DNA from: Dicyema japonicum
Taxonomy: Eukaryota; Dicyemida; Rhombozoa; Dicyemidae
DNA: 64,000 bases
Assembly (NCBI GenBank): GCA_011109175.1
Contig: RDEW01000009.1
Span: 301,158 to 365,157 of the forward strand
Direction of reading: 5' to 3'
The notes under the pieces were generated by a model. It was given only the letters and a program-made list of their open reading frames with translations. It searched no databases and had not been told where the DNA came from. The position numbers and the translations under genes are program-made. Position 1 is the first letter of the stretch; each line of letters begins with the position of its first letter. Shown here in pieces: positions 5,126-55,142 of the stretch.

Positions 5126-7679
5126 ATGAGTTTATTTTCTAAATTCATATTTTCACACAGAATATTAAAGATTTCATCAAGATCACTGTCAAACCATGTG
5201 TGCGTAAGGAAGACATTTAAAGACGCCAATACAATCGTCCTCAAACTGGGATCTACCATAATCACAAATTCTGACGGATGTGGTCTAGCTTTGGGTAGGT
5301 TAGCCTCAATAGTGGAACAGGTAGGCACCCCTGATCCAAATTTTAGGCATCTGAATTACAAAATTCTGGGAAAAAATTAATTATTGTGACTAGCGGATCC
5401 GTTGCTTTTGGGAGACAAAAACTTCTTCAAGAGTCCTTAATGTCACAAAGTGTGCGCCAAACCATAAGTGGACCTGAGAATCAACTTGTAATTTCAGTTT
5501 TTCAAGTCTTAGGAAATGATGAAGCAATCTGGAAACAATGCAAGCGCTGCTGTGGGCCAATGTGGACTAATGTTCCTTTATGAATCAATTTTTCAGCAAT
5601 ATTCAGTCAAAGTAGCTCAGGTAGTCATTATTACTTGTTTCAGGTACTCCTAACAGCTCATGACTTAATGAATGATGGAAGTCGTCAGCATATATCTAAC
5701 ACACTGAGAGAGTTGATGAGCATATCTGTCGTCCCCATCATCAACACTAATGATGTGGTCACTTCTGAGTCAGTCAGAGTTAAAATGAACAACCACGTTA
5801 ATCGTATTCAATTATTAAAGGACTTTGGAGAACTCGATAACGATGTTGTTGCAGCTTTGATCGCCAAGGAAATGTCTGCAGATTTGCTTATTTTAATGTC
5901 AAACGTGGACGGACTTTTCACTGGTTCTCCAGATGATCCAGATTCCAAAATAATTCACTACTTGAATCCTGATGAAGATATCAAAAAATTCGAAATCTCT
6001 GAGAAATCATCAGTTGGAATGGGAGGAATGCAGTCAAAAGTATATTAAACTAATTTAATACAAGATCAAATCTGCTTTATGGGCTGTCCAGCAGGGGACA
6101 AACACAGTGATTTGCAATGGATTTAAGCCCTTAAACATTACACGGATAATACAGGGACACAAAATTGGTACATTACTCACCACAGCAATGGACACTCACT
6201 CAGATATTGAGAGGATATGTTATGATGGTTAAGGCTTGAGAGACTATTTTTAGCTAGAGAGGCCTCACGAAAGCTGGCGAATTTATCTTCAGCTGAAAAG
6301 AGTATGTTGTTGAATGAAATTGGGGATTTACTTAAAGAAAACCAAAACGAAATATTGACACAAAATCGATATGATGTTGCTAATGCCGTCCAAAGCGGTC
6401 TATTCTACATTTTATTAATGCAGGAACAGAAAATTCCCTTATTGGTCGTTTAAAACTAACCCCTGATAAAATAGACATTCTGATCCAGGGATTAAGACAG
6501 GTATCAGAGCAGTTCACGAATTTACCTGGGCAAACTCTTGAGACAAAAAAGCTATCAGAGACACTTTTTCTGGAAAAGATCAATGTTCCAATAGGTCTTC
6601 TCCTAATTATCTTCGAATCCAGACCAGACTGTTTAATTCAGGTAGGCCAGCTATATCTATTCTTAGATATCCTCTTTGGCTATAGCCACAGGGAATGGGG
6701 TCATTTTAAAAGGAGGAAAAGAGGCAAAGTACACAAACGAGTATCTCCATTCACTAGTGATTCAGGTTTTGAAGAAATATGTACCGAGTGAAGCCGTCAC
6801 TTTGGTATTCTGGGATTAATAGTTGTATAGGTAAGTAGTAGAGAAGAGATTGACGAATTAGTGAGGATGAAAGACTACATCGATCTCATTATTCCACGTG
6901 GATCGTATAACCTTGTGGAAACTATTAAGGAAAAGTCAGAAGGTCAAATCCCTGTGTTAGGACATTCTGATGGAATATGCCACGTGTTTGTTGATTCAAG
7001 TGCAGATTTGAATAAATCGCTTACAATTGGTTAGTGAAAAATTTCATATAGCAAAGTCCGAGACTCAAAGTGCAATTATCCATCTGCCTGTAATTCCATG
7101 GAGACTCTTCTTATACACAAGGATCACATCTCCTCTGGATTCCTAAACAAGATGGTCAAAATGTTGAAAGATAACAACGTATTTGAGAATTTTCTTAGTT
7201 TAGGTGGTCATGAATCCTGGAGAGAGACTTGCCTCGCAGTTCCAATTTGGGATGACCAAAACTAAATCTATGATGACGGAATATGGAGACTGGAGTGTAA
7301 TATTGAGGTTGTTGATAATATCGATGACGCAATTAATCATATTCAAACATATGGCAGTAAACATACTGACGTAATCGTTACAGAAAACAGTAAATCCAAT
7401 AATAATTGCAGAAAAAAACTCAGATAAATTCCTTCGAGAAGTTGACTCTGCCTGTGTTTTTTTGAATTGCAGTTCGCGTTTTTCTGATGGGTATCGTATG
7501 GGATTAGGTATATGGTTAAAAATAATTTAGGCGCTGAAATTGGAATAAGCACGGGGAAGTTGCATGCACGTGGACCAGTCGGCGCACAAGGACTGTTATC
7601 AACAAAGTGGATATTACGTGGAGATTCTGAGGCTGTGGAACAATACGAAATCCTAAAGACAAAGAAATACCTTCACTGA
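5126..7679 (+). CDS. ALDH18A1: Delta-1-pyrroline-5-carboxylate synthase (P5CS), 13 exons
   Basis: This bifunctional enzyme makes P5C from glutamate for proline and ornithine synthesis, normally in mitochondria. Exons: 5126-5320, 5347-5487, 5513-5620, 5644-6039, 6065-6227, 6254-6397, 6424-6641, 6667-6804, 6831-7029, 7057-7178, 7204-7389, 7412-7507, 7531-7679. The 12 GT-AG introns are 22-27 nt. Joined, they give about 751 aa (human 795). The glutamate-5-kinase half carries [33 protein letters not shown] and VGMGGMQSK. The reductase half carries [30 protein letters not shown], the catalytic-cysteine segment [12 protein letters not shown] (about Cys579), [17 protein letters not shown] and LHARGPVG. 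An in-frame TAG at 5114 supports the 5126 start, and the N-terminus is presequence-like. One base appears to be missing near 7289 (exon 11), where EYGD shifts into ECNIEVVDN. Confidence 0.93.
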
Positions 7680-7955
7680 TAATAAATATTCTTCTATATT
7701 TGGATAATTTTCCTTTCAATATTTTTCCTTTGCATATCGTAATAATTAAGCGAATTTTAATCCAGATTGCTGGTAATCCCTCATCTTCTCTTAGAAGAAG
7801 ACTGTACCATAAACTCCCTGTTATTACCCATCTCCACTTCAGCTTCAGTCGAAATATCTCTTTTAGAGTCCAGTGGGCTATCCTCACGGCATGCCAGTTC
7901 TACAAGTTGGAAGGTAGCAGAGGCGACTCTTCATCGTGTACCTTCATCCCATGCT
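7680..7955. other. Intergenic, nothing recognised
   Basis: This short stretch lies between the P5CS stop and a LINE fragment. Overlapping frames on both strands look like chance frames, and I see no conserved motif. Confidence 0.4.
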
Positions 7956-7959
7956 TATG

Positions 7960-8540
7960 TTAAATGAGCATACTTTCAAGCGTTTTCTTCAGCACAACCG
8001 ATTGGATGTAAGTCCTCGTTGATTCTTCAATAGATAGTTTATCCATATGATTCTTTAAGCATCTTGAGACAACTCCATCCCATGTCAAAACCACTGTAAT
8101 AATCTTCACTAGACATTCATAGAGTAGCGAAAGTTCGTTTGCAAGCAAGTCAATTTTGTGAAGATTCACAACTTCAACTTGCTTTAGTCGGTCTTTTAGG
8201 TAATGCCCACTTCGATAAAAGTTACTTTCCTTCTTTATTATGTCTTAAACAAGAATATCAGGTTTATTGAATTTGACTTTCGTTTCTGTCATAATCGGTG
8301 TCAACTCTGAATTCGACATTTTGAGTCGTCAATATTGACTGAACCGAATGTCCTTTCAATTTCCTGTTTCTTTTGATTCCATAAACTCGACAAAGATGAA
8401 AATAGATACACTTTACTACTTCATTATGTCTTCGGAGATAATCACTGTTTAGCATTTTACCACACTGAGTGACCAAATGATCGACAGTTTTCCTGCTTTT
8501 TTGCGATGGTTGCATTTTTCCTTTGCATAACATAGATTTA
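7960..8540 (-). mobile_element. R4/Dong-like LINE, C-terminal nuclease remnant
   Basis: Reading from 8533 down gives LRRHNEVVKCIYFHLCRVYG and a HSVQSI / VEFRVDTD segment. After a frame break come HKIDLLANELSLLYE, VVLTWDGVVSRCLKNHM and TYIQSVVLKKTL. This is the C-terminal restriction-like endonuclease region of R2/R4/Dong-type elements. It matches the copies at 42899-43261, 15568-16190 and 58114-58377. The RT is absent and the frame is broken. Confidence 0.75.
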
Positions 8541-8589
8541 CATTAAGTTATTTCTTCCTTAAACTCTCAACGGGTCTGGACGATGTGCC

Positions 8590-9175
8590 GTATACCGAAA
8601 CTCATTTGAAAGTCTACTGGTGTCATCTAATCGATACTGCCGTGCTTTTTTTGTCGGGTACGACTCGGATTGAAAGTATATGTGCCTCATCCATGCCGAT
8701 GCGAGGACAAGATTGACAGTTTTGGCATGCACTCATTCTCCTGCAGGAATATCGCGGGGAGATTTCCCAAACACATGGCCTTGAACGAAGTCGTTAGACG
8801 AGCTTTGGACGCTGCTTGATACCTTTCATGCTCGAACCAGTTAGCCTTTGTAGACATGATGGGAAACGTCCCGATGGAATGATCATCTTTCCCTTTGAAG
8901 TTGGGAAACCATTTGTCTGGGACGTCACCTGCACCGACAAGTTTGCCCTTTGCAACCTACTCCTAAGTGCCTCTGGAGCCTGCTGTGCTGATGAGAAGAC
9001 TGAGAGATTGAAACAAGTCACATATGCGGTTCTACTCGAGGATTTTTTGTTCGTTCCGCTCGCGGTTGAAACGTCCGGTTCGCATGCGCCTTCGACGCTG
9101 GGATTTCTGTGTCATCTAGGGAATCGGATTTCTAAATGCACATGACATCTTCGTGAGCGATGCTGGCTATTTGTG
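8590..9175 (+). mobile_element. YLDD-type LINE, knuckle and PD-(D/E)XK nuclease fragment
   Basis: A CCHC-like knuckle (HPCRCEDKIDSFGMHSFSC) is followed by FPKHMALNEVVRRALDAA. After a break comes LEPVSLCRHDGKRPDGM, then FVWDVTCTDKFALCN, and FVPLAVETSG toward 9080. RPDG...VWDVT fits the PD-(D/E)XK nuclease signature of LINEs with a C-terminal restriction-like endonuclease. The same domain occurs at 32150-32330 and 36350-36510. No RT is left here. Confidence 0.75.
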
Positions 9176-9179
9176 TGAA

Positions 9180-10250: not shown

Positions 10251-10554
10251 GTTAGTGACTTATTCGCACACAATGCTTCATGCATTTGTTTAGATCCATT
10301 CGGCGATCAAGGCCTCCCTCATTCTTACTGTCAGTATTTTTAATGTTCCGTAAAATCTTCCAAATCTTGGAAAGTGAAACATTTTTTTTCATGATAGTGG
10401 AGATTCGGCCCAGTTTCCTTCTTTGTAAATGTGTTTCATTTTTGGAGATCTCCGGGTTCAGTGTTTGGATCCTATTAATTGGGTCTCTTGTAAAATATTG
10501 TCTTCAGTTAATTTGAAAGTCGATTTTATCTTCATTTTTCTATCATCTTACATG

Positions 10555-11035: not shown

Positions 11036-11039
11036 CTAA

Positions 11040-12055: not shown

Positions 12056-12374
12056 AGTCCCGTACTCATTGGTGCAGGTTGTACAACAAAGGTGAATAAA
12101 TTCTCTAAATTATTCAAAAGAAATCAATCAATTTAAGTTAAAATGGTGTCATTGAAGAAAGTTATATGGCATATTATTATTACACCAGGATCACTGGGTC
12201 AAAGAGAAAAAAATAAAGTTCTCATCTAGAAATATAAGTTCTCATAAAAATAGTAAATTAAATTTTTAGAAATAAAAACATAATTTTAATAATCAGAACA
12301 AATCAGACAAGACATTAACAAGTTCATTATAGGACAAACTGTGAATTATTCTAGGGTTAGCAAGGTCAATGAAC

Positions 12375-13753
12375 TCAAACATAGACTCTGATAAGCTCTA
12401 TAAAATCAAACGAAGTGTATACTTTAATATTAACAACAACCACGTGTCTACATATTCCAAATCTAGTCATATTCACTAAGCCGGTATCCAATGGAAACAT
12501 GATCCCTATCATCAGGACAATTTCTCCCACCAACGAAGCACTGATTCTTGACCTTGTCCAAACTGAATAATCGGTCCCTCATTCTCTCAAACATATAGCC
12601 TTTCTAAAATCACAAAAAACACACCTTTTGAGTTAACAAACAGAGTTTAAAGGCTGCAACATGTTTGGCCATACAATATTAGTTCCTTTATCAGCTTCCA
12701 CACAGGTCGCCATCAACCTGCCAATACCAATTCCATATGAGCCCATTACGACGTCTCGAGATTCTGGTCTTAGCAAACAGGAGTATTTAGTCCCCAAAAG
12801 AAAGCAGTGGGCGACCTCAAAGTAAGTCGTCGGATACCTCAATGCAGTTTATAGCGGTGGTCTCTGAATTGCAATGATAGCAGTTTTGGACATCAGAATA
12901 GTGAGACGCTGACTGACAACTTTATTATATTTTGTTAAATTACTTGATGCACAGTGATATTTTCTCCTCACCGACTAATGCAGGGACCAGAAATTCATGA
13001 GATGTGGATCCGCCCATCAATCCACTGTCAGCAGACACTGAAGTAAGATCTTAAGAATACAGCAATAGTGGGAGAGCTTTAGATCTGTCAAAATTCTCCC
13101 GTAAGACTGTTTGACAGTTTCGTAAAACTCTTCAGCGTGTTTTAAGTCAGAGTCGAAAGAATACAAGTCAGCATCACCATATAATAGCACCTTTCATTTC
13201 AAATTCACGACTTCGGAGTAGACCATGCTTTGGACGAACCTCATCTCTAAATTTTCGGGAGATCTAAATAAGGAAACAGCTTACTTGGTAGATTTTTGGA
13301 AAATATTCTTTGACAGGACCCCTCAATCCAACCATGTTAGCCACGTGTTCTTCATGTGTCTCTTATATAGATAATAACATCAACTGGACTCAAGCAGAAG
13401 TCGTGGTTTGAGCGGTCAGTAAATCGAAATAATTCGTTGGCCATCAAATCCCACCTCTTCACGGATGACCACAGTTCTTTGGAAGCAATTGTAGGGAGGG
13501 AGACCTCGGAGGCTCCGATTGAGTCCATCTCAGCTCTGATCATTTTCTTTAATTTGCTCATAACTCTTAATCCTAAAGGTAGGTAATAAAATATTCCAGG
13601 AGAGGCCTGATCAATGTAACCGTGAGACATAAGCAACTATCAATATCAAGAATAGACAACCTTGTGACTCTTTGATAATGTATTAATGGTTTCTTTAGAG
13701 CTATTAGCCATTAATGCAGTCATTAACGTAGACTTTACATTATTTAGTGGCAT
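12375..13753 (-). CDS. PARS2: Prolyl-tRNA synthetase, mitochondrial/bacterial type
   Basis: This class II synthetase charges tRNA-Pro, probably in mitochondria. From ATG 13753, motifs include YIDQASPGIFYYLPLGLRVM, KELWSSVKRWDLM, then across an intron SP/THEEHVANM, ISRKFRDEVRPKHGLLRSRE, LMGGSTSHEF, a CINC...CYHC cysteine quartet, EVAHCFLLGTKYS, MGSYGIGIGRLMA and WPNM. Introns I can place: 13637-13660, 13360-13384, 13264-13284, 13038-13060, 12920-12943, 12816-12837 and 12604-12624 (21-25 nt). Three anomalies remain: a junction near 13168-13185 without a usable AG, a one-base shortfall near 12650 (CCTTTAAA), and a stop near 12463 beyond which homology continues (FGICRHVVVVN) to about 12375. Either the gene is decaying or the consensus has indels. 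Confidence 0.88.
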
Positions 13754-17440: not shown

Positions 17441-18005
17441 CGTAAAATTCGAGCCACTAGTCTACTCAAATTTTATTTTTAATATTTTTGTAATCATAAA
17501 AAATGGTTGATCGATTTTTAAATTATGTATTTATTATGACAACAGTTACGAAACATTTAAATAAATACTCACTTAACGGTAAGCAATGACTTATTGTTAA
17601 CTTCAATCAATCCAACTAATGTTGTGGAATTTCAAAGGTAAACAAAGAATCTACTGATAATCGAACATTTTTTTAAACATATTCGAAAATTAATTAAAAA
17701 TATTTCGCTTACATATTCAAAAATATTTATTTTTGTTGTCTTTACGATCTTTCTCACTAACATATTCTTTTTATTGATTTTGAAAATAATGCTCATTCAA
17801 TATTTTATTAACAAATCTCGCCTTAAGGGACCTGCATGAGGTTGACAGAAAACAGTACTCTTAATGCGAGACAATTCCTAAAGTAAACTTAAGGACATAA
17901 ACAAATTAATGAATACAAAAATGAAAAAAATTCAAGAAAAAAAAGTTAGATAAAAGACGTGATCACACCGCCTTGTTTGGATTCCTTAAGATTTAAAGAC
18001 ATTAC

Positions 18006-18322
18006 TTACTCAACAAAATAGCCTAAAGAAGTGCAGAAATTCATGATCTCATAGTCAGAATTTCCCTAAGAATAAAAGGCCAACAAAACCCTTCGACGGA
18101 CATTAGAACAGATAGCAAATGTGTCATGCTTGCCTCTGTAGACTCCGTTCTCGTCCAACTATAGAATAATAAAAAACATATACCTTAGCAATGCTGAATT
18201 GAATGGATCCGAAATCTTTAGGCCCAATTAGCGTATTTGTAGATGAGCTACACTTATTTATATCAAAAATACCATTTTCTAGGAATATATAGGTCAACTG
18301 CGTCTTTCTCACTAACTTCCAT
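18006..18322 (-). CDS. RPS21: 40S ribosomal protein S21, 4 exons
   Basis: This is a small-subunit ribosomal protein (eS21). Exons on the minus strand are 18322-18273, 18247-18184, 18158-18090 and 18065-18006. Introns of 25, 25 and 24 nt are all GT-AG. Joined, they give 80 aa (human 83) beginning MEVSEKDAVDLYIPRK, then CSSTNTLIGPKDFGSIQF, then HDTFAICSNVRR and GNSDYEIMNFCTSLGYFVE. It aligns to eS21 along its full length without frameshift. Unspliced it appears only as a meaningless 67-codon frame, so it would be missed by ORF-based annotation. Confidence 0.93.
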
Positions 18323-18419
18323 AACAAACACGTGATTTTTGAATTATTAAATTTTAATTATATATTTATGCTATTTTAAACAAATTTATTATTAAAAGGG
18401 AAAAAAAACTTGCCAATTT

Positions 18420-20444: not shown

Positions 20445-21530
20445 ATTAAGTCGTGTCCGACTCTTGGAGATCTCATGAACGAGTTTCCTCCACTCTCCTC
20501 GATCCGTTGCAATTTGGAGTAGCCTTGATGTAGGCATTCCCGTGATGTCTTCCACCGTAGATAGCCACCGAGTCCTCGGTCGGCCAGGTCTTCTCTTCCC
20601 AGTAATATTGCTCAGCATAATGGTTCTTTCCAGTGAATCAGAGCGGACAACATGCCCAAAGAACGCCAATCTGTGTTTTACGATTCTTCCTTCTAGCGAA
20701 ATGTCCGTCTCCACCCGTTTGAATACATCGATGTTTGTTATTTTGGAAGTCCAACGGATTCTTAGTAACCTCCTCCAGCACCACAGTTCAAAAGCATCAA
20801 TTTTTCGTCTATCGCCTTTTTCAATATCCATGATTCTGCGCCGTATAGAAAAACCGGGAACACGATTGCATTAACCAGTCTGCATTTGGTCCTTAAGGAA
20901 ATATCTTTGCTTTTCCAAATTCTATTCATTCTCTGGAAGGTGTCTCGTCCCATGGCAATTTGCCTTTTGATTTCCAAGCCTCCGTCACTATTCCGATTAA
21001 TTAGACATCCCAGAAAGACAACATTATCGCAACTCTCTATTTTCTCATTCCCAATTTTTAGTTCCATTATTCCATTATTAGCAGTCGTCATAATTTTGGT
21101 CTTCTTGATATTTAGCAATAAACCAAAGACGGCGCTCTCTTCTCTGAATCTTAGAATCAACTCCCTGAGGCCATCCTCTGTTTCAGCCAGTAAGGTTGTA
21201 TCGTCAGCATAGCGCAAATTATTGATGTTCCTGCCTCCAATTTTAATCTCGTTATTTGATACAGTATCCAATTTAGTCATGATCATTTCGGCATAAATAT
21301 TGAATAGGATGGGAGATAATAAGCATCCTTGTCTTACTCCTTTACCAATTTCGAACCAATCGGTATCTCCATACACTGTTCTAACAGTAGCTTCTTGATC
21401 CTTATAAAGAGATTTTATAAGCAATATCAGATGGGTATCGAATCTAAATTCTTTTAAAGCGGACCACAGCTCGTCATGTATAACGGAATCAAAAGCTTTC
21501 CAATAGTCAATAAAGCACTCTCGTCTATAT
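20445..21530 (-). mobile_element. RTE-like LINE, RT to C-terminus
   Basis: From 21530 down: ECFIDYWKAFDSVIHDELW; ATVRTVYGDTDWFEIGKGVR followed by QGCLLSPILFNIYAEMI; NNLRYADDTTLLAETEDGLR; then FPVFLYGAESW. The C-terminal frame at 20442-20831 has LWCWRRLLRIRWT, HRLAFFGHVVR and GKRRPGRPRTRWL. The YADD box is intact. The two frames differ by one base in an A-run at about 20824, so the RT could be uninterrupted in reality. It is the best-preserved LINE RT in the window, truncated at the 5' side. Confidence 0.82.
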
Positions 21531-21544
21531 TCCCAGAGACTTTA

Positions 21545-22620
21545 GCAGCTTTACGAGCCTCAGCAATGTTTAGGGTGTTGGCAGAGAGCCACTCAGAGCA
21601 CTTGGCCGGGGTTTTGTATTTGACATGTTTTATTGCAGCGTTCCTCTTAGACTGTGGTAACCTTAAATATTATTATAATAAAAACCAACGAATTAAGGTT
21701 AATTTAATCAAAAACTTTCACATCGAGCCTTGATGGACCAGGAAAAGCAACAAGATCCCGAACTACTTTTAGCGAGAGACGGATGATATCCACATCGTAA
21801 ACGTGAAGTTCCGCTCTGCCAGCACTCCGAAGCAGTTTTGAAGCGTTAATCTCTGGAGGTGTGCCCTCCAGTATCTTGTTCTCTTCGAGGGTTCGTATGG
21901 AACGTGTAGACACGAAGTCATGATACTTTCGGTGAGGTTTGGTCTTTTGCCAGAGGTGGGATTTTCCTGAGGTAGCTTTTGTAGGAAGGAAAGTGATATT
22001 CATGGAGCCCAGTTTGGGGAGGCATAATTCAGTGTCGTCCTGATGAATTGCTTGTACAGCTTTATCGGAGCGGCTAATTTATACACAGAAAAGTCTTCCA
22101 AGGACTTTTCTATTTCTGGCTTAAAATTATCCCAATTCGTCTTCCTGTAGTTTTCGAAGGTCCGCCTGATGATAGGTGATCGGAGGGTAGGTAGGTCACA
22201 CCTGACATTCCAGCTAATCAATTATGTGATGGAAGGTGGATATGTTTGGATTCCCGGGACGGGTTCCACATCTTTCGTGTTGATTGAGAAGGTGTTTGAG
22301 TTTTGAGATGACTTGTTCTCCTCTGACATCTGATAAGTGAGTCAAATACCATAGTGGGTCCTTAGCATTAAGGTCTCCACAAATCATAACGTTATTGAAG
22401 TCGAGTAGGAATTCCGGGTTGGATATTAGTGAGATTGTAGGGAGTGGATATGATGTTAATGGTAATGAAAATCCCATTAATGTTCAGTTGTAGGATTCTA
22501 ATTTTGTTCAGTCTGGAGTTGGGTTCGACATCTTCCGACGCCAGGAGGATCTTATTGGAGCGAAGTCTTTGTGACCGCTCGATGGTCGCTATCGGGAACT
22601 CCTTTGTGAGAACTGAGGGA
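21545..22620 (-). mobile_element. Jockey/CR1-like LINE, endonuclease and RT end
   Basis: An AP-endonuclease segment lies near 22214-22477 (VMICGDLNAKDPLWYL). RT C-terminal segments follow at 22000-22221 (YKLAAPIKLYKQFIRTTLNY, then ASPNWAP) and 21704-22003. The main RT catalytic core is missing between them. It abuts the RTE-like LINE near 21540. Confidence 0.6.
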
Positions 22621-25960: not shown

Positions 25961-26064
25961 AAATAGACATGAATTCAATTTCTTATCTTGTCATTAACCC
26001 GGATATACATTATTTAGCATTTTTATTATTTTCCGTGTTATTTTTAATTAATTGGATTATAAGA

Positions 26065-26340
26065 TCATATCGTGTGTATGCTGGGTGGCAAGTACTGTCG
26101 AACAGGTCTCTCATAGAAGGTGAAAGGCCTGTAGTAGCCTGGTATGTTCATTCGCGAGTGTCGTTAGAGTCAGCTTACTTGTGAGTGCAAGACAAATTTG
26201 ATGGAAAGCTTCACCTAAGACTAAATAAATGCACGAGTTCGATAGCGGACAAGTACCGTAAGGGAAAGTTGAAAAAAACTTTGAGAAATGGGTTAAAAGT
26301 GCGTGAAACCGTTTAGTAGGAAGCGGATAGAGTCCTGATG
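26065..26340 (+). rRNA. 28S rRNA fragment (D1/D2 boundary), divergent
   Basis: The conserved large-subunit block ACAAGTACCGTAAGGGAAAG, then TTGAAAAAAACTTTGAGAAA and GTGCGTGAAACCGTTTAGTA, is preceded by the recognisable CTTCACCTAAGACTAAATAA (28S: CCATCTAAGGCTAAATA) and AGGTGAAAGGCCTGTAGTAG (28S: GTGTGAGGCCGGTAGCGG). Both ends stop abruptly: neither the 5' terminus nor the D2 core is present. It is an isolated, probably non-functional insertion of rDNA. The 71-codon frame at 25969-26184 overlapping it is not a gene. Confidence 0.85.
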
Positions 26341-26559
26341 TTGTTCGATATTCTTAACATTGGACCACCTGAACTCGACGCAAACCCGATAAATATCTCG
26401 GAGTGAATTAATTTGGTATTACGCTTACTGATAATTGGCAGTTTTCTGCATGCTAGTGAAGCACTCATAATTTGAAATTTAGAACGAAGGAGGAAACCGG
26501 ACAGATCAAAAATAAGCAAATTTGAAAAAAATTCACTCCATAAACAAATAAAGTTTTTT

Positions 26560-29030: not shown

Positions 29031-30518
29031 TTAGAATCGTTGATCATCCATTCTATTATTAAGTCTATCAAATAGTTGGTCGATAACTTCAATATGATCA
29101 TCTTCACAATATCTCTGATCGTCAAACCGAGATAATGACACCAATTTATCAAATATATCATCCAAATGACCCTCCCCTGTCGATAATTCTTCACTCTCAA
29201 GCAATCCCATCGTTGGTCGTCTTTCCCAATTTCCCTGTCCCACTGATATAACGTCTAACTCACTAGTATGATCACTCGTAATGTCCACTAAATAACCATA
29301 AAATCCTCACCCATTGGTTCATATCTCTGGTCGTTCAAACGGAAGGCATTCAATCTGTCAATTATAGCATCCAATGAGTCTAATGACTCATCCTCTCTCC
29401 GGTCACCAACTCCCAACAGATCAATGGTTTTTTTATAATAATGAGCACCGAATATCTTAAGTTCTTCGTCCCCAATCTACATATAATTCCAACCCACCTT
29501 GTCAGATACATCCACCAGTTTTCTACTATGATAAAGTAACTGAAAGTGGTCTCCTCGGGCATTCAAACAGATAATCAGTCCTGCAGTTGCCTCCGCCAGT
29601 TCCTTATCGCTTTGTAATATTGTTGAAAAGTCCACAAGCATTTTATAATACTTAATTGCCTCCATATACTCTCCCACTCTCTAAATGAGTCCCCCAACAC
29701 ACGACATGCCCTCGCAAATACGTGGGGACTCTTCTTAGTGAGTGCTTCAATTCCTTTCACAGACTCAATAGCTTTACTGGGCATCCCCAATTGGAGCAGA
29801 CAAGTCCCCCTATTGACCATAGCATTGGCCATCCCCACCTCATCCCTACAGAATCGTGCCTCTTTGAGTCTCTTTTATCATCCAATAGACCAACCAGTGT
29901 GTGATAGTCGAATGCCTTGTCGTAATCTCCTCTTACATAATGACAATTCCCCAATACATTGAAGATCCTCCCCTTCTCAAGGGCACTGCATGGGCTTTCG
30001 TAATACTTACTAAAACTCAGATATAGCTATACAAGAAATAGTCAATGGCACAATCCACGTGCTTTACTATATCTTTCCGAGATATTGAGTTTTTTGCCCG
30101 TTCGTAGTGAATACAGCCCAGCATGTACAATGCACGACCCTGCATGTAAATGAGAACTATACTTTGCCTTCAAATCTTTCCGAGACAATCTCAAGGTATT
30201 CTTCGGCAGTCGAATACTCCCGCATTTTCATAAGGACTGTACCAATGTTAAGACATGCTCGTACTTCTCCTTTACTGTCTCTGTTGTTTCTATTATTAAA
30301 GCATTTCCTGACTTGCTTTCAGTGAGTTCTTTGTTAAAATATACCAACGCCTCATCACATTTTCCCATCAAAAGTTTGACCTCCCCCAACTGTCTGTAAA
30401 CGTAGACTGCCAACTGTGGACTCACAGTATCCTTGATTACGGTTAATTTGTCGACCGCCTCTTCTAATTTGTTATTCTGAATAAGGGTTTGTGCTTCCAA
30501 AATAGCACGTAGTGACAT
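29031..30518 (-). CDS. GPSM2: Pins/LGN/AGS3: TPR-GoLoco spindle orientation protein, 7 exons
   Basis: This scaffold binds G-alpha(i)-GDP through GoLoco motifs and NuMA/Inscuteable through TPRs, orienting mitotic spindles at the cell cortex. Exons (minus): 30518-30313, 30289-30163, 30139-30033, 30009-29895, 29871-29498, 29476-29311, 29287-29031. Introns of 23, 23, 23, 23, 21 and 23 nt are GT-AG. The result is about 450 aa (human LGN 684). N-terminal TPRs read VYRQLGEVKLLMGKCDEALV, VRACLNIGTVLMKMREYSTA, VLGNCHYVRGDYDKAFDYH and RGTCLLQLGMPSKAIE. Three C-terminal GoLoco motifs end in FRLNDQR, SRFDDQR and NRMDDQR. One base is missing near 29676 (FRE/VGEYMEAIKYY), probably a G-run error. The TGA upstream of 30518 fixes the start. 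Confidence 0.92.
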
Positions 30519-30519
30519 A

Positions 30520-31115
30520 ATTATATTTGGCTCTATTCATTTATTTGTTTAAATATTTAATTATTATAATTATAAGTAATTTTATTTATAAAATGCAAAT
30601 TAATGGGTCCTTTTTTTACATCTCTGCCGCCAGAGGTGTTTTCTGAGAGATTAGAAACGCAATCTCGTCAAGGCTTGGAGATCCTCGGGATTGCAATCGT
30701 TTGCAGAAATGCCCTTTGTATTTTTACAGTCAATGGTTGATTTTGTTTTTTATAATAAATATATCTACTGAAAAAAACTAATTAAGAATTGGATATACAG
30801 AGGTTTAGAGTGGGGCTTGATAATTCTATGCTCGACTATGATTAGATTTATTATCTTAAAAGTATAAATACATTTTTAAATTTTAATTTTCAACTGTGTA
30901 CCACGTTTAATTATTGACTAATTTCGATCGATTTATGTCTCAATTGATCAGAGAACCATTTAATTAACAAAATCGATAGTCTCTGTTTTCTTATACTGAA
31001 GTTAGCACTGAATATAAAAAATAATAACGTTAATAAAAGTTAAACTTGTGATTTAAACTATGAAAGATATACATTTCTCTCCAATCTCTTCCTTATCCAG
31101 GAAACAAACGAAACA
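30520..31115. other. AT-rich intergenic
   Basis: I see no gene, RNA or repeat that I can support between the Pins start and the LINE beginning near 31118. Confidence 0.4.
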
Positions 31116-33566: not shown

Positions 33567-34163
33567 ATGGATTCTTATGGTAATGGTTCAGTCGACACAA
33601 CATATGAGGACATTGAAGACTGTCAGAGAGAATTAGACATTCTGAATGAAAAGGCAAGTCAGGAGATAATCAAAACAGACTATGAATATTATCTTAAAAA
33701 GAAACCGCTAAATATTCAAAGGGACAAGCTACTTAGACAAATACCGCTTTTTTGGCAGCGGACAGTAATCACTGATTTGATCCCCAGCTTAAACAAAATC
33801 CCCAAATATGTGGTCAAATCACTCCCGAGGATATGGAAATTCTGTCCTATTGTGTCTCTTTGTTTGTGGATGAACACCTGGAGGAGAATTCAGGGTACTC
33901 AATCACATTTGTAACACATTAACGCATAATTTAGACGTTTCTTCCTCACAGATTTTTCTCCAATTCATCCCTAGTTCGTACATTTCCACCGTCGAATCCT
34001 CCTTATAAGATAGACTGGACCATTCCGACCAACAAATCGTTTTTTGACTCTTTTATGAATGAGGACGACATTGGTGTGGTTATCAGAGAAGATATATGGT
34101 CGGATGTACTGGAATACTATCTGGTTTGTTTCATCATTTATTTAGATGGAAAGTTGTTATTAG
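33567..34163 (+). CDS. SET: SET/NAP-family histone chaperone, 3 exons
   Basis: Nucleosome assembly (NAP/SET) proteins bind histones and remodel chromatin. Exon 1 (33567-33910) encodes ELDILNEKASQEIIKTDYEY and LLRQIPLFWQRTVIT. Near 33817 a one-base shortfall in an A-run must be bridged to reach PEDMEILSYCVSLFVDEHLE. Exon 2 (33935-34123) encodes YKIDWTIPTNKSFFDSFM then EDDIGVVIREDIWSDVLEYY, the conserved SET C-terminal block. Introns are 24 nt (33911-33934) and 22 nt (34124-34145). The protein ends six residues later, giving about 183 aa. The long acidic tail typical of SET is absent whether or not the last intron is removed. Confidence 0.85.
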
Positions 34164-34224
34164 TTAATTGTTATGTTAGATAATTGTTTTTTACTTAATC
34201 ATGGTCACAAACTACAGTTACAAT

Positions 34225-34486
34225 TTTCAGTTCCACCTACTATGGTGGATGTGTCTTATGTTTATAAGTAATCTTTTAGTTCCCATGGATATTGTTCTGT
34301 AGTTGTATTAGCACATCGTCTTTTTATATTGGGTTTATTAAGTTTGATGCAATGATTGATATTTTTATATCATCTCTAAGTTGTACTGGTATCTTAACTT
34401 TAATCCTGGCTTATATTGGAGTAAACTGTTATGAATTATTATGTAACCCCTGCAATAAAACACCAAGGAGGAGTATAACCATCTAA
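34225..34486 (+). CDS. Hypothetical membrane-segment ORF
   Basis: A frame to TAA 34486 encodes a strong hydrophobic stretch (IDIFISSLSCTGILTLILAY), then IGVNCYELLCNPCNK and a basic end PRRSITI. A 20-nt GT-AG segment (34261-34280) may join an upstream MVDVSY piece. It resembles a terminal transmembrane helix with a palmitoylation-like Cys cluster, but no family can be assigned. Confidence 0.35.
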
Positions 34487-40284: not shown

Positions 40285-42580
40285 ATTTATATTTGAGATA
40301 TCATTTTTTGAACCCTTTTATTTATTTATTCGTTAATAAATTTGTTGTCAGTCCCAAATTCTAACGATTCTAAACCTTGTTCAATTGTGAAATGTGTACT
40401 TTCAAATTTTTTAATAATATCTGCAATAGCGACATTACTCGGAAACCTAGAATGTTCGAATAGCTTCGGATAAGGTCACATAGACTGCTAACTAACACGT
40501 GGTTTTGAGACTTTTTTTTAGCTGTTCGAACTAGATATCCAACATCCGCGAATGATTCAAAAATATTTTGAACTCCGATCAGATTTTCGAATAGTAAATA
40601 GCGGCCTTAAGCTATGTCCAGCATCCGAAATTATTATTTTATTATTAAAAAGTACTTTCACAGAACCAAAGAACGTTATATTAACTAAGGTCCCGTTTGT
40701 GCCACACGTTTCACTATCTGCTTCACTAGGCGTCTCCATCGCCCTCTGCTTTGCGCATCTGTTCTTAGATCTTCTAGGTCTTCTGCAGATTTAAGATTTC
40801 TTCTAATCCCATTAAGATCCTTGTTCAGAGCCACGGGTAAAGTGACTCTGGGTCTTCCTCTGAATGATGGTTTGTTCTCATTGTTAAAGTAATTGTCCAT
40901 TATTATATTTGCAGGGGCGTTTATGTCCATTCTGAGCACGTGCCCAAACAGTCTCCACCTTGATTCAATAATGTCGATGTTTATTGGCCTCGATTGTGCC
41001 ACAGAGTATAAATTCTTATTTGAAATCTTCTTGGGCCAACCTAGGCCCATTAAATTGCGTAATTGTTTGCGATGAAATATATCCATTTTCTTGTGCTCTA
41101 TCTCTGTGACCCCCTATGTACCCGAGTTGTACATTAGCACCGATTTTATACATGCGTTGTATAGTCTTATTCTTAGATTTGTTTTTATTAGTTTTCGTCG
41201 ACTGTATAGTCTTCTTCTTAGATTTGTTTTTATTAGCCACATCTTCTGCATTTTTTTATACATGGCAGTGGCTAGAACTATTCTATACATCATCTCCTCA
41301 CTATCACCAAGTAAGGATCCCAATTTCCTTTTTTTCCTCCAATTTTCATCAATATATTTTGATTCCCTTGTGATTCTTATGTGTTCAGTCTTTTCCTGAT
41401 TAACTCGCAGAGACCAATTCTTAGATTCTCCAGGGATTTTCTCTAAAACAAGTCCAAGATCATTTTCTGACACAAAATCTATGTCATCTGTATATATAAT
41501 CTTCATCGGCTTGCATCCTTCACATTTTGTTCTAAGAGCTCTCAATGCCGCTTCCAGGTATACGACGAATAGAACCGGAGATAGAGAGTCTCCCTGAGGT
41601 ATTCCAACTATTGTCCCAAAATGCTTCGATGTTGTGTTTCCAACTCGTACAGTTAATTCAGTGTTCGATAATAGGAAACAGACAAGCTTTATGTTATCCT
41701 CATCAAGAATACTCCCAGCAACGTCCAACAGTGTTTTTCTGTTGACAGTGTAAAACGCACTGGACATGTCCACTCCCAAAATCTTAAAATCACTCCTGTA
41801 TTGTTGACACATGGCACATATCTACCTGTGGGACCAAACAGCATTTGCGGTCGAGCGTCCCTTTCTGAACCCACTCTGTCTCGGCGACAAAAATTCATAA
41901 ACATCAGAAGACATCCGACTAAGGTTATCAGATCCGAAATTAACGAAAGGAAATTTTTCTTTTGAACTAAATTATTCCGAAGTGCATCGTCGACTATCTG
42001 AGTAATGATGTTCTTGTTAGGAGCAGATTCTATTGCCTTAAACGATATCAGATATGTTGTTTCAAGAGAATTTAACGATCCAATCATCACAGCAACGTAT
42101 CTTTGGCCCCGGATTTTTGTTTCATCCGTAATATGAAAACTTTTTGATTGCTACAAAATAAAGTAAACTTTTATACACAAGTTTTTGTTGAATTAACAAT
42201 TTTTGATCCATTATGATTTGATCAACACAGCTTCTAGCTTTTGATGGTGAGGGAACTCGTACAGAGCCGTAAAACAATTCTCTAAGCCACGGCATAGATA
42301 GTTTGTTTAGTAGAATATCAAATTTTATAAATGCTCTGGTTACTTGTAGAGCCCGATCATCATTTTCAATGTGTGTTTGATGCGATTCGGTTAGATAATT
42401 CACAAAAAATAATTGTTATTTCGCAAAACTTAATGAACTTTGATGTTTTGTGAGACTAGATAGGAATTTACAAAATGCCTTTTTTCGCATTTTATATTAC
42501 ACAAACAGAGTCGACAATGTAGCGCACCATCCTCAAGAATCATAAATTCTTTAGGATAATCTTTTACAATGGCCTTATTT
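40285..42580 (-). mobile_element. hAT-like transposase remnant, split by a LINE
   Basis: The N-terminal half (42580-41932) reads KEFMILEDGALHCRLCLCNI (zinc finger), RALQVTRAFIKFDILLNKLS, MPWLRELFYGSVRVPSPSKA, ITDETKIRGQRYVAVMIGSL and FLSLISD. The frame resumes at 40622 as ISDAGHSLRPLFTIRKSD and continues ESFADVGYLVRTAKKKSQN. This order (zinc finger, DET with the first catalytic Asp, SDA with the second) fits CGBP1-type hAT elements. The break is the LINE 40634-41931 with an 11-bp target duplication. Frameshifts make it inactive. Confidence 0.75.
40634..41931 (-). mobile_element. YADDIDF-type LINE, 5'-truncated, with TSD
   Basis: It begins within the RT fingers (SPRQSGFRKGRSTANAVWSH). It continues FKILGVDMSSAFYTVNRKTL, IPQGDSLSPVLFVVYLEAAL, IIYTDDIDFVSEND (YADD altered to YTDD), LGSLLGDSEEMMYR, and the C-terminal WRLFGHVLRMD and FRGRPRVTLPVA. 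The 3' end is a TTATTTTATTATT-type tail on the + strand. ATCCGAAATTA at 40623-40633 and 41932-41942 is the target-site duplication. It is inserted in the hAT element. Confidence 0.88.
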
Positions 42581-50986: not shown

Positions 50987-51997
50987 TATGTCAGAAAGAA
51001 AAATTTGTCAATTATACAATATTGGAAAAGGAACTGTCTCACGAATTAAAAAAGATATCGGAAAAAATTTTTCAAAAAGACAAATATGCTCTGATAAACT
51101 CTCATCTAAGAACTTCGAATCAGATCTTTCTATTCGAATTGATCGATTAGTTTTCGAAGTCTTTAAAAATTTGAGAGAGGATGGTATTTTTTTCAGGATT
51201 TCTCCACACAACTATTGCAAAAAAATGCAGCTAATCTTGACTTCAATGATTTCAAAGCATCAAATGGATGGTTGGATCGATTTAAAAAACGCCATGAATT
51301 ATTCAAGTAATTTCGGGTGAAAGAACTCATGTGACAGAAATAAAGTCGAAGATTTTTTTAACGATTACGACAATTTATTTGATAAATACGTGAAAAAAGA
51401 TTTTTAACTGAGACGAAACCTCTCTTTTGTAAAAAAAATTCATGTAATTCATTTGTCTCTTCAAATGATGATTGTTTTGGTAAAACGAAAAGCAAAGAAC
51501 GAGTTTCAGTTCTTTTATGCTGCAGTCTTGAAGGTGAGAAATTAAAGCCCTTTGTTATCGGGAAATTTAAATTACCAAGATGCTTAAAAATATAAAACTG
51601 AAGATTATAGGGTATATTTTATTAGGTTACTTTTAGGTTTTGTACACAGCGTCAGAATTGCTTGGATGATGACTGATATTTTTGATAAATGGTTATAAAA
51701 AAATAAACTTTGAAATGGTACAAAAAACAGAAAAATTTTGATTCTTATGGGTAATGAACCGAATTTCTAAGAATTTAGGAATTTCTTAAATTTCCTAAAA
51801 ATCTTTATTCAATACTTGCCCTGAAAGGCTCAATAATACTATGAATTCAGAATAAAAATTTTAAAGATTCTAAGAAATAAGTATAATACTGGGTTCAAAA
51901 TAACTGATTACAGTCCGACCCCGAATTGGGGCACCAAGTGCTCCAAAAAGCGGGGGTGCCCAAAAACAGGGGTTTAATAAAACAAAGATTTTAAACA

Positions 51998-53567
51998 TCA
52001 AAAATCAATTTTAGAAAAATAATCAGTTAATTTATCTTCAGTTATCCTTTTACTTCTTACATTTTTCATAAAATTAAGTCGAAAATCGTAAAATTCTTTG
52101 AGCATTTCAGAAATTTTCTTCTCTAACTGATCATGAGAATCTTTCGTTTCTTTTAGAATTGTTTCCATGTTATCGCTTTTTAAACCTTCGTTGTAAATAT
52201 TATCAACGAATTCGTCACTTTCCCCATTCAATGTTTCGTTTACGGCATTGTTGATCATTTCTTCTGTAATGGTATCTTTAATTTTTACGGAATCACGAAT
52301 CTTTTCAATTTGATTCCAACAATTAAATATTAAACTTGGATCAAGTTTTTCCCAGCTTTTAGAAATTAGCAGAATTACATGACTAAGGTTAATTTTGTTT
52401 ATCAACCGTTTGAATTCATCATCATCCTCCTCAAAATACAAATACTGAATCAGATAATTTGAGTAATAATCTTTAAAGGTCTTGATAATTCCCATATCCA
52501 ATGGTTGCAAATACGGTGTTGTATTTTTTGGCAAAAAAAAAATAACAAACTCAATATTTGAGCATTCAATAGTTTTATGACATCCCGCATTATCAAGCAA
52601 TATTAATACTTTTCTGTTGATTGTATAAAATCTTTCATTTATCCTAGTCAACCAGCTCATAAAAATATTTTCAGTCATCCATGCATTTTTAGAGGATGAA
52701 TATGAAATTCCAAAATCTTTCACATTGAAATTTTTGAGACATCGAGAATTTTTTAAATTTTCCAACAATCAATGGCTCAAGTTTTTCCCCATGGAATTGC
52801 AACAAAGAAGTACAGTGACTCTTTCTTTTCCCTGTTTAAAGCCAAAAGTATCGTCATTTACTCTGACAAACGACTTTCGTGGAGTCCTTTTTATATAAAG
52901 AGCAGTTTCATCACAATTAAAAACATTTTGTCTTCCATATTGAATAATTTTCTCGTCAAGAATTTTAAAAAACTCATTGATGTAAGTCAAGTCACATGAA
53001 TTTTTTCTCACAAATTGATTTAAATTTCAGTTCATGTCGCTTTTTAAATCTGTCAAGCCAGCCGTTTGAAGCTTTGAAAGTATCAAATCCAACTTTTGAA
53101 GCCTCCCCACTCCACTGGAAAGGTTTCCACAACTGCAACTATGGACGTCTTACCCTTTATGCTGATTCCGGATGGACTCTCTGTAGAAGTGGAAACTGGA
53201 TACATTTAATTAGTTGTTTACTTTAACTTCTTTCTCGATGTATCCGGGTTATTAAATTAAATTTAAATTTTTGAAGCCGTATATAAGGCAATTTTCTTTA
53301 TGAAAGGACCTGATATTGGAACCTTATCTTCGCTTAGTTTCTGAAATTTTTCAAAAACTTGATCATCGAATTTAGATTTCTCACAATAAGGCATAGGATC
53401 CTCATCCGTGTTTACAGTTCCTTGTTCAAGAAAAGGTACAATTGTTTTTTTATTCGCGAAATCATGCCTTTACTAGTTTTGTACTTTTTAATTATCTGTC
53501 TTTCAGATAATTTGTTCTTCAATATCAATTTAGCAATCGTTAATCTTGTTTCGTAGTTGATAACCAT
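51998..53567 (-). CDS. pogo/Tigger-like DDE transposase, interrupted
   Basis: From ATG 53567: the HTH (YETRLTIAKLILKNKLSERQ, then TSKGMISRIKKQ), SINE B insertion at 53104-53268, KASNGWLDRFKKRHELKFKS near 53030-53090, then RQNVFNCDETALYIKRTPRK (first Asp), ERVTVLLCCNSMG, VLILLDNAGCHKTIE (second Asp), NTTPYLQPLDMGIIKTFKDY (third Asp) and an acidic C-terminus to 51998. All three catalytic aspartates are present. Apart from the SINE and two compensating homopolymer-length shifts near 52745-52780, the frame is open. It is the least decayed transposase in the window. Confidence 0.88.
53104..53268 (+). mobile_element. SINE B insertion with target-site duplication
   Basis: This matches the 3' two-thirds of the 49115-49385 copy. 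It is bounded by TTTTGAAGCC at 53094-53103 and again at 53269-53278 and ends in an A/T tail. The insertion disrupts the transposase of the nested element. Confidence 0.88.
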
Positions 53568-53895
53568 TCACAACAAAAAATGTAACTAAACGTGTAAATT
53601 AAAATTATATAATTATTAATAAAATATAATTTTATTTACTTATAATTTCATTCCCTAAAATTTTATAGTGCCCCAAAATTTCCATATTTTTTATCGATTT
53701 TCCATTTTACTCTGCCAAAATGTTGGCCAAAAAAAAATGCCCCAAAATGCGGGGGTGCCCCACCCCTGGGGTCTGCCCCAATTCGGGGTCGGACTGTATT
53801 TCTCATAAAATAAATTAAATCCTCTTTTTTATCGAAACAACATATTTTGTTATTAAAAAATACAAATAATAGTTTTAAAATGTAATAATTATATA

Positions 53896-54084
53896 ACACC
53901 CCACTTTATTTAACAAACAATAAAAAAAGTTAATATATTTAATCAACAACCTTCCTCGCCTGCCTGTTCGCCAGCCTCCTCAGGCAGGTTCGATTCTGGT
54001 TGCTGAAACAACTCCGAGAGCGCTTTGTCTAATTGAACCCTCTGCCCATATGGCATCTCAGGGCTCTGCCTCCTATACTCTATA
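53896..54084 (-). mobile_element. 5'-truncated R4/Dong-like LINE fragment with TSD
   Basis: This 189-bp fragment is nearly identical to 42712-42900: the coding end (MPYGQRVQLDKALSELFQQP, ESNLPEEAGEQAGEEGC) plus the 3' UTR ending AATAAAGTGGGGTGTTAT. The 9-bp duplication AATTATATA occurs at 53887-53895 and 54085-54093. Confidence 0.88.
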
Positions 54085-54189
54085 AATTATATATACCCTT
54101 TATATTGGGGCACTTTTCTATTGGGGCGGAGTCGTACTGTAATTGTATGATCGATCGATGATTAGATTATTATTATCAGCACTGCCGAG

Positions 54190-54335
54190 AACACATAAAA
54201 AAACAAAAGTCAATTAAGGTTCCCTTGTGCCGCGCCGGCCACTTTTTGCACCAATCGCATCCAAAGGCCTCTCTCCGTTTCGCAAGATCTCTTAGTTCAT
54301 CGAGGTCATCCATTGTTTTCAACTCCCTGCCTGAT
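54190..54335 (-). mobile_element. YADDIDF-type LINE 3'-end fragment
   Basis: The minus strand reads MDDLDELRDLAKRREAFGCD, ending in a GGCACAAGGGAACCTTAATT 3' region. This parallels the C-termini and 3' ends at 3420-3540 (+) and 40680-40780 (-). 54340-54865 is AT-rich with no gene. Confidence 0.65.
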
Positions 54336-54869
54336 GATTAGATTGGTAATGCCTTTTTACATTGTATTCTTTCGGTATAGCGATAAACTGGTTACATATC
54401 AAACAATGTATTTTTCCATCAACAGTTGTACAAAAATAGGGAAGTTACAATTAATCTTGAATCATGTTCATCGTTAAACACTGTTTCTTAGTTCCACAAG
54501 AAGCACGTGACATTGAAAAACAAGATTTACAAATACTATTAAGAAAAATTTAATTAAATGTAAAAAAATAACAAAATGATTTTTGTGTTTTATAGCCATT
54601 AAATCAATCCAGAGTAAAGTTTCTCAAGGTCCGCATGTTTGACACCCCTGAGTTAGACTGAATTATCGAACGTTGTTAATGATACTACTACTTGTTTTTT
54701 AAGACTTAACAATGCTAAAAAAGCCACATTTAAGTGAGTACTAGACCAAATCAATAAGACACTAAAAACCAAAGATTCTCATATAAAAAATCCTAAACTA
54801 ATGGTATAATATAATAAAACAAAACATAAATCAAAGAACGAAAACGAAACAAAAAAACGAAAGTGATAA

Positions 54870-55142
54870 TTAATCGTTAGCGGAATTAATTTCAGCCTGA
54901 GTGTGATCAATCATTTCATTGATATTCTGTTCCATCACATCAATTCTATCTCCCATTTGTTCGACTAACATGCACAAAAATATTACTTTTTGCAAGTATA
55001 TCATCGGACATCGTCAAGAATTTAGCCTGTAGATTCGCCAAGAGTTCTTGGATCTGACATATCATATCAATCTTACTTCTTCAGCATCTTCAGTAGCTTT
55101 ACGGGCTTCATAATCAATGTCGGACTGATTAGTAACGTTCAT
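54870..55142 (-). CDS. HSBP1: Heat shock factor-binding protein 1, 3 exons
   Basis: This is a small coiled-coil nuclear protein that binds trimeric HSF1 and restrains the heat-shock response. Exons (minus): 55142-55077, 55053-54987, 54964-54870. Introns of 23 and 22 nt are GT-AG. The product is 75 aa (human 76): an acidic N-terminus (MNVTNQSDIDYEARKATEDA), then IQELLANLQAKFLTMSDDIL, MGDRIDVMEQNINEMIDH and a short tail. The KFxTMSDxI block and the heptad-spaced RIDxxExNIxxM segment match HSBP1 across its conserved core. It is intact, and no exon exceeds 95 nt, so it is invisible as an ORF. Confidence 0.9.

Follow-up and report, generated by a model that had tools for sequence, protein, structure and literature searches.

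Ultra-short GT-AG introns in Dicyema japonicum genes and a likely branch site close to their 3' end

How can genes be interrupted by introns of little more than 20 nt, and what would a spliceosome recognise in them? The question is raised by a window of 64,000 nt from Dicyema japonicum (the whole stretch, GC about 36.5%), in which the original prediction placed GT-AG introns of 21-27 nt in seven genes. Six of these genes were identified by protein matches; the seventh, a tetraspan-like gene, was not located. The six genes are the following:

5198..7673, + strand: P5CS (delta-1-pyrroline-5-carboxylate synthase), 12 introns averaging 24.9 nt (range 22-27), from spliced alignment and a gene-finder model
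12299..13672, - strand: ProRS (prolyl-tRNA synthetase; best PDB matches bacterial-type), PDB 5ucm, E 7.4e-39
17966..18331, - strand: RPS21 (eS21), PF01249, E 1.3e-26
29043..30533, - strand: Pins/GPSM2 TPR protein, PDB PINS 5a7d, E 8.6e-19
33606..34256, + strand: SET/NAP histone chaperone, PF00956, E 2.1e-12
54873..55145, - strand: HSBP1, PF06825, E 1.2e-13

For P5CS the final list has 12 introns, the number given in the original prediction. An earlier model of this gene (5159-7673), with three intron placements differing from that list, matched Drosophila P5CS (PDB 7f5t) with an E-value of 4.5e-187. The introns, all GT-AG on the + strand, are:

5321..5346: intron 1, 26 nt, homology and finder
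5488..5512: intron 2, 25 nt, hand-placed and finder (by homology, 23 nt and a frame shift)
5621..5643: intron 3, 23 nt, homology and finder
6040..6064: intron 4, 25 nt, homology and finder
6228..6253: intron 5, 26 nt, homology and finder
6398..6423: intron 6, 26 nt, finder; the alignment by homology alone has to be slid by 21
6642..6666: intron 7, 25 nt, homology and finder
6805..6830: intron 8, 26 nt, homology and finder
7030..7056: intron 9, 27 nt, homology and finder
7179..7203: intron 10, 25 nt, homology and finder
7390..7411: intron 11, 22 nt, homology and finder
7508..7530: intron 12, 23 nt, homology and finder

When P5CS was aligned without any splice-site preference, 10 of the 12 had a GT-AG reading within 12 nt, the remaining two being the slid intron 6 and the hand-placed intron 2. 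The finder proposed one further in-frame candidate of 24 nt (5797-5820) in a poorly conserved stretch. A one-base frame shift lies near 7289, and we rejected a 50-nt finder intron (7308-7357) that would remove conserved coding sequence and merely bridges this shift.

The introns of the other genes have more varied backing, as given below (all lengths in nt):

13637-13660 (24), 13360-13384 (25), 13264-13284 (21), 13038-13060 (23), - strand: ProRS introns, homology-supported
13169-13190 (22), - strand: ProRS gap with a GT start and a TG end, homology
18248-18272 (25), 18159-18183 (25), 18066-18089 (24), - strand: RPS21 introns, recovered without splice preference
30290-30312, 30140-30162, 30010-30032, 29872-29894, 29681-29700, 29477-29497, 29288-29310 (20-23), - strand: predicted Pins/GPSM2 introns, finder only
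33765-33787 (23), 33911-33934 (24), + strand: SET/NAP introns in the aligned part (for the first, the alignment backs a net 23 nt only)
55054-55076 (23), 54965-54986 (22), - strand: HSBP1 introns, finder only

The original prediction fared unevenly in these genes. Its counts of three introns in RPS21 and two in SET were recovered in the alignments, the finder adding a fourth to RPS21 and, past the aligned part of SET/NAP, three more; its two introns in HSBP1 agree with the finder. Ultra-short introns were likewise predicted in Pins, seven by the finder instead of six. The seven introns proposed for ProRS, whose Pfam match is below the Pfam cut-off, were not reproduced, with 12 found by the finder and five by homology (one of them slid by 13). 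No intron of ordinary size was needed in the aligned parts, as had been claimed, the finder maximum being 60 or 120 nt; near the ends of the RPS21 alignment there are two further gaps (107 and 54 nt) that lack GT-AG.

Splice-site-free alignments to known proteins were made for four genes, P5CS inside the window and ISWI, BRG1, and BLM outside it. The models of the latter three match human proteins with 1198, 995, and 587 bits, respectively, and ISWI is 56-61% identical to varied animals among the matches listed (120 of 7993), with no dicyemid sequence in the comparison. The alignments contain 52 gaps, 37 of them of 21-27 nt; of the other 15, five measure 14-19 nt and ten 34-297 nt, and many of these odd-sized gaps lie close to an end of the BRG1 or BLM alignment. 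A GT-AG reading within 12 nt was available for 33 of the 41 gaps of 15-32 nt and lacking for eight, against 16 for the next dinucleotide pair and three for the median pair.

The same preference was seen with a finder scoring only GT and AG: for lengths of 16-32 nt, GT-AG totalled 1902 against at most 1643 for each of 17 decoy dinucleotide pairs, and it was alone among the 18 in peaking at 22-25 nt. When 10-200 nt were allowed, 44 of 120 introns measured 22-27 nt. A low-penalty run of this finder was set aside for over-prediction (1456 introns, with A at -7 down to 36%).

A catalogue drawn up from 285 kb beyond the window (maximum intron 60 nt) lists 339 introns in 34 genes; it omits the window's own genes, models scoring below 60, and models with fewer than three introns; four loci nested in others were removed from the locus set. 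The mean length is 23.3 nt and 328 introns are 30 nt or less, the shortest, possibly misplaced, being three of 20 nt, one of 19, and one of 17. Introns that are in frame and without stops are invisible to the gene finder, and lengths divisible by three are thus undercounted. In a wider run (maximum 120 nt), 360 of 393 introns were 32 nt or less. Protein continuity and these sequence signals, from which we infer excision, confirm that the ultra-short GT-AG introns of the host genes are real.

Beyond GT, the 5' splice site is weak, with GTRAG in 15 of 323 introns and G at +5 in 82 (motif counts took in introns of 20-28 or 20-27 nt). The 3' part is more informative. An A occupies position -7 in 82% of 21-nt (n = 22), 71% of 22-nt (n = 84), and 56% of 23-nt introns (n = 87), the peak moving to -8 in those of 24-25 nt. 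This A usually has a T two bases upstream (113/171 at -7, 63/78 when the A is only at -8, and 34/42 when only at -9, against 237/505 for other As). In the 323 introns, TNA was observed 113 times at -7, 76 at -8, and 51 at -9, against 36.4, 37.6, and 37.1 after shuffling, and stayed at chance level or lower at most remaining positions. Such enrichment agrees with the yUnAy-type branch site of U2-type introns.

The catalogue finder uses an 8-base 3' matrix that covers position -7. With the finder scoring GT and AG only (near-duplicates removed, from 319 to 309 and from 89 to 87; models with fewer than two introns omitted), A was at -7 in 48 of 87 introns against 20.8 +/- 3.9 shuffled, and TNA at -7/-8 in 46 against 17.5 +/- 3.7. 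For homology-placed introns, A was at -7 or -8 in 26 of 35 (16.1 expected, p 0.0006), and at -7 alone in 16 of 35 (9.3 expected, p 0.010), a weaker signal than in the catalogue. Many introns thus likely carry a branch A whose position shortly before the 3' end hardly varies, a statistical rather than a mapped assignment, which would put the donor-to-branch distance mostly at 15-18 nt. Human introns fail when this distance falls below roughly 44-52 nt, according to the accessible part of PMC11291888. The extreme constraint on the spliceosome put forward in the original prediction is supported by the tightly bunched lengths and by the nearly constant spacing between the likely branch A and the end of the intron.

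Several other explanations have to be weighed. It is very unlikely that the segments arose by insertion or misassembly in genes that are decaying, bridged because any GT-AG gap of 20-30 nt gives a false continuity. GT and AG are indeed common, the finder bridged stops over retroelement stretches with gaps of many sizes, and P5CS has its frame shift; however, the rule-free gaps bunch at 21-27 nt, their GT-AG readings far exceed those of other pairs, and ISWI, BRG1, and BLM are conserved genes. The introns could also be real with their branch site unplaced, the A at -7 being an effect of composition or a by-product of the 3' matrix. The matrix position, the modest p-value at -7 alone, and the 41 introns without signature in PMC2483917 speak for this possibility, which we consider improbable since the signal survives scoring of GT and AG alone and the upstream T, at -9, lies outside the matrix.

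Removal by the minor (U12-type) spliceosome would account for a branch site near the 3' end, as is usual in minor introns, and genes for U11 and U12 snRNAs, with a weak U6atac candidate, are present in the genome; CCTTRAY occurs in four of the 393 introns. However, no intron among these 393 started with GTATCC or contained CCTTAAC (the finder barred AT starts), the introns did not show the U12-type combination of an RTATCCTT donor with a TCCTTAAC branch site, and the paired pattern TATCCTT...CTTAAC was not enriched (49 matches, whereas the reversed control gave 99). As both the 5' and the branch sequences are of the U2 kind, this explanation is extremely unlikely. Self-splicing or tRNA-type removal by an endonuclease, with no spliceosome, has only small size in its favour and is barely conceivable given the GT-AG ends and the branch motif; group I and group II introns need more length than this.

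We consider it highly probable that a dicyemid-like animal has here U2-type spliceosomal introns reduced nearly to the smallest size that its spliceosome can handle: most are GT...AG, they cluster at 21-26 nt, TNA is enriched, and the A lies mostly at -7 to -9. Recognition would rely on geometry more than on U1 pairing, with GU, the branch A about 16 nt on, and AG about 7 further. The floor near 21 nt may represent two minimum spans, about 15 nt from donor to branch and about 6 from branch to acceptor, at which the stretches held by U6 and by U2 would abut with no spare linker. In the human pre-catalytic complex a gap has been described that introns of this length are too short to bridge, so the adaptation is likely to be an assembly step that has been altered or bypassed.

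The recognition sequences of U1 and U2 look ordinary. U2 gave 25 genome matches, 22 of them over the cut-off, with GUAGUA intact in the three copies shown; U1 gave 11, all short of the cut-off (top score 69.0, threshold 69.5), with ACUUACCUG intact in the three copies read. Splicing nevertheless appears to manage with a donor-to-branch span of about 16 nt. An ISY1 gene is present in the genome; in Stentor, the portions of Cwc25 and ISY1 that face the active site lack conservation (PMC9505925). Searches for Cwc25 (PF10197 profile and protein query) returned nothing and U4atac gave no match at E 0.001, results that do not imply absence, as the control genomes were prokaryotes.

Since U11, U12, and a weak U6atac candidate are present, minor-class splicing may persist, but the searches brought no minor intron to light. 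We suggest tentatively, as a rather doubtful possibility, that a working minor spliceosome is kept and that, introns being capped near 27 nt genome-wide, U12-type introns have been compressed to less than 30 nt. The best-looking U12-type candidates (L068, L071, and L054) were dropped after inspection by eye: either an open frame was not seen on both flanks, or the candidate lay antisense to one. Further RTATCCTT sites exist in the examined loci, a few of which were inspected. The accessible part of a minor-intron survey (PMC10639083) excludes introns below 30 bp and gives a shortest average just under 42 bp; sub-30-nt U12-type introns, if true, would be shorter than any minor intron known, and both classes would work at 15-18 nt from donor to branch, roughly one third of what human introns need. 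The presence of U11, U12, and a possible U6atac extends the question of minimum size to minor introns.

Dicyemids are animals in which introns so small are in print (PMC2222250, PMC2483917, PMC6543705), which agrees with the lineage clue of the original prediction, as does the GC content of the window (about 36.5%, against 36.7% for D. japonicum). Their shortness has been published since 2007 and is thus not new in itself; what is new here is the placed branch-site signal. The sources compared are PMC2222250 (2007), PMC2483917 (2008), and PMC6543705 and PMC6736024 (2019), with Ogino 2010 as cited there, in their accessible parts. Among the matches listed, no title after 2020 was that of a dicyemid genome assembly, and only PMC2483917 held the word dicyemid in the literature on U12, the minor spliceosome, branch points, or snRNAs. 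Like the introns described here, those reported for Dicyema are spliceosomal, about 20-35 nt, uniform in length, several per gene, and weak at the 5' boundary; ours are narrowly distributed in length and have a very weak 5' splice site beyond GT. The means differ, about 23.3 nt here against 26.2 and 24.93 reported (median 27; 38.2 for all D. japonicum introns). A second difference concerns the branch site: the accessible part of PMC2483917 reports no branch-point signature in 41 introns, a published statement on which the present signal bears.

Outside animals, Paramecium (20-35 nt) and the Bigelowiella nucleomorph (18-21 nt) have similarly degenerate signals, and a branch signature is not reported for them in the accessible parts of PMC2222250 and PMC2483917. 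The 15-16 nt introns of Stentor coeruleus (PMC9505925, accessible part) also have a branch A whose place near the 3' end is almost constant (position 10 of 15, i.e., -6), no strong branch consensus, and conserved U1 and U2 recognition sequences. This ciliate differs by its shorter introns, by the stringent conservation of their first three letters, GUA, and by indications of the major spliceosome only, whereas we found U11, U12, and a U6atac candidate too. The placed branch site offers a measure for testing why introns do not shrink much below 21 nt, and it turns dicyemids into a naturally occurring animal model for finding the assembly step that fixes minimum intron size.

The window (C181:301158-365157 of the 64.67-Mb, 191-contig assembly) has a GC content of about 36.5%; the part of PMC6736024 available to us gives 67.5 Mb and a GC content of 36.7% for D. 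japonicum. Its sole Rfam match was a partial eukaryotic LSU rRNA at 26008-26545 (+), covering model positions 24-664 of 3401 with 116 bits. Partly decayed reverse-transcriptase frames of retroelement type, recognised by eye, and the remnant of a DDE transposase, slightly below the Pfam cut-off, account for 490-2856, 20457-22066, 40688-42132, and 52085-52501 (all on the minus strand). At about 3727-3811 lies an inverted repeat (about 30 bases, a single mismatch, short spacer) that resembles a small mobile element.

Ultra-short introns are already known in dicyemids, since the available parts of the published reports give lengths of 26.2 +/- 1.9 nt (n = 16; PMC2222250), 24.93 nt (n = 41; PMC2483917), and a median of 27 nt (PMC6543705). 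In the window, the first P5CS model matched Drosophila P5CS with an E-value of 4.5e-187. We aligned proteins to DNA with an aligner written for this analysis, which permitted gaps of 8-300 nt and gave no weight to splice sites. The P5CS gaps thus obtained were 26, 23, 23, 51, 25, 26, 26, 25, 26, 27, 25, 22, and 23 nt long, plus two frame shifts. Twelve introns remain, the same number as in the original prediction, and for 10 a GT-AG pair lay within 12 nt of the gap; one 23-nt gap with a frame shift represents the 25-nt intron at 5488-5512. The 51-nt gap, in a poorly conserved stretch and without a close GT-AG reading, overlaps an in-frame 24-nt GT-AG candidate at 5797-5820 (+) that bears the putative branch motif TNA at -7 (counted from the intron 3' end) and may be coding or a thirteenth intron. 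A one-base frame shift within a conserved stretch near 7289 could be a sequencing error, a polymorphism, or real.

Among the other window genes, the counts proposed for RPS21, SET, and HSBP1 (3, 2, and 2) were recovered in the parts aligning or matching Pfam, and our self-trained gene finder added one candidate in RPS21 and three in SET. For Pins, the finder predicts seven introns instead of six. For ProRS, seven introns were claimed and homology supports five, including a 22-nt gap at 13169-13190 (-) that starts with GT and ends with TG instead of AG; the 12 introns of the finder represent over-filling. The tetraspan-like gene said to have one intron was not found in the window.

When only the terminal dinucleotides were scored at 16-32 nt, GT-AG gave 1902 versus 1249-1643 for 17 decoy pairs, and a peak at 22-25 nt was present in GT-AG alone. 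This peak still stood out with 10-200 nt permitted, 76 of 120 then falling outside 22-27 nt. The splice-rule-free alignment of four genes contained 52 gaps; 37 measured 21-27 nt, 5 were shorter (14-19 nt), and 10 were longer (34-297 nt). A GT-AG reading within 12 nt was possible for 33 of the 41 gaps of 15-32 nt, versus a median of 3 over 256 pairs; TA-GG reached 16, which is what a one-base shift of GT-AG would give.

Outside the window, the finder was run over 285 kb, made up of thirty regions surrounding Helicase_C matches plus further loci. The final catalogue, with lengths capped at 60 nt, comprised 339 predicted introns in 34 genes, with a mean length of 23.3 nt; 328 were no longer than 30 nt. 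An earlier run capped at 120 nt gave 393 predicted introns, of which 33 exceeded 32 nt (37-116 nt), so that some longer introns may exist. Models scored 1198 (ISWI), 995 (BRG1), and 587 bits (BLM) against human proteins, and ISWI was 56-61% identical to those of varied animals among 120 matches listed of 7993. By reading, we take other products to resemble FANCM, INO80, an ATRX/RAD54L2-type helicase, a condensin subunit, and RPAP1.

In the introns of the 120-nt run, A peaked at -7, with T at the next two positions (-6 and -5). A occupied -7 in 82% of 21-nt (n = 22), 71% of 22-nt (n = 84), and 56% of 23-nt introns (n = 87); in longer introns, it peaked at -8 for 24 nt (47%) and 25 nt (46%) and at -9 for 26 nt (56%, n = 18). 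T stood two bases 5' of the A in 113/171 cases with A at -7, 63/78 with A only at -8, and 34/42 with A only at -9, versus 237/505 for other As. Counting every TNA in 323 introns, we obtained 113 at -7 (36.4 in shuffles), 76 at -8 (37.6), 51 at -9 (37.1), and 47 at -10 (37.2), the remaining positions holding 19-42 (24-37). Judged by its sequence, this putative branch signal is the yUnAy form of the U2-type branch site. The 5' site was almost bare (G at +5 in 82/323, GTRAG in 15/323).

Because the 3' matrix of the catalogue spans -8 to -1, the search was redone with only GT and AG scored and flat lengths. The signal persisted: of 87 introns, 48 had A at -7 versus 20.8 +/- 3.9 (maximum 35 in 3000 shuffles), and 46 had TNA at -7 or -8 versus 17.5 +/- 3.7. 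Of 35 homology-placed introns (one positioned by hand, another after sliding by 21), 26 had A at -7 or -8 versus 16.1 (p 0.0006); for -7 alone, the count was 16 versus 9.3 (p 0.010). The available text of PMC2483917 reports a branch-point signature as absent from 41 dicyemid introns; in contrast, our larger sample, which probably comes from a different species, shows one.

U2 snRNA had 25 matches, 22 above the cut-off, with GUAGUA kept in the three shown; six lie within about 111 kb (C115:851074-962467). U1 had 11 matches, the best (69.0 bits) 0.5 below the cut-off, with ACUUACCUG kept in the three read. Minor-spliceosome snRNAs were matched at three loci:

L049, 1501-1629 (-): U12 snRNA, single match
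L092, 11-130 (-): U11 snRNA, single match
L088, 162-259 (-): U6atac candidate snRNA, single match

U12 (85.4 bits) has an intact branch-binding stretch and departs from the family at a single position within the first 28 letters, and U11 (67.6 bits) has AAAAAGGG intact. The U6atac candidate (37 bits, cut-off 33) keeps AAAGGAGAG, but its alignment shows GGC at the site of the family's AGC triad; it may thus be altered or decayed. U4atac gave no match in the genome search at E 0.001, which does not imply absence, the control genomes being prokaryotic, and no U12-type intron to accompany these snRNAs was found in the loci searched. The three matches are on contigs C1, C68, and C34 (1.2-2.5 Mb). 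Host contamination is an unlikely source, because C1 and C68 also bear short-intron genes and C34 bears U2. Among the matches listed from the dicyemid intron and minor-spliceosome literature, as far as they were read, no description of dicyemid minor snRNAs came up; the main text of the pan-eukaryotic survey PMC10639083, from which introns below 30 bp were left out, has no match to "dicyem-".

With one A from -6 to -10 assigned per intron, it fell at +15 to +18 from the donor in 259/313 introns. The floor of about 21 nt could be the sum of two minimum spans: about 15 nt, in which the stretches held by U6 and U2 would adjoin without a linker, and about 6 nt from branch to acceptor. As length increases from 21 to 27 nt, the mean donor-to-branch position moves from 15.1 to 19.7, and the mean position of the branch counted back from the intron end rises from 6.9 to 8.3; the first span thus takes about three quarters of the slack, with n = 7 for 27 nt and the -6 to -10 limit capping the second span. 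According to the available parts of the respective papers, human introns are spliced poorly or not at all once the donor-to-branch distance drops below about 44-52 nt (PMC11291888), and Stentor splices introns of 15 nt in which the 10th nucleotide is the branch A (PMC9505925). At about 16, the donor-to-branch distance in D. japonicum would be intermediate between Stentor and human.
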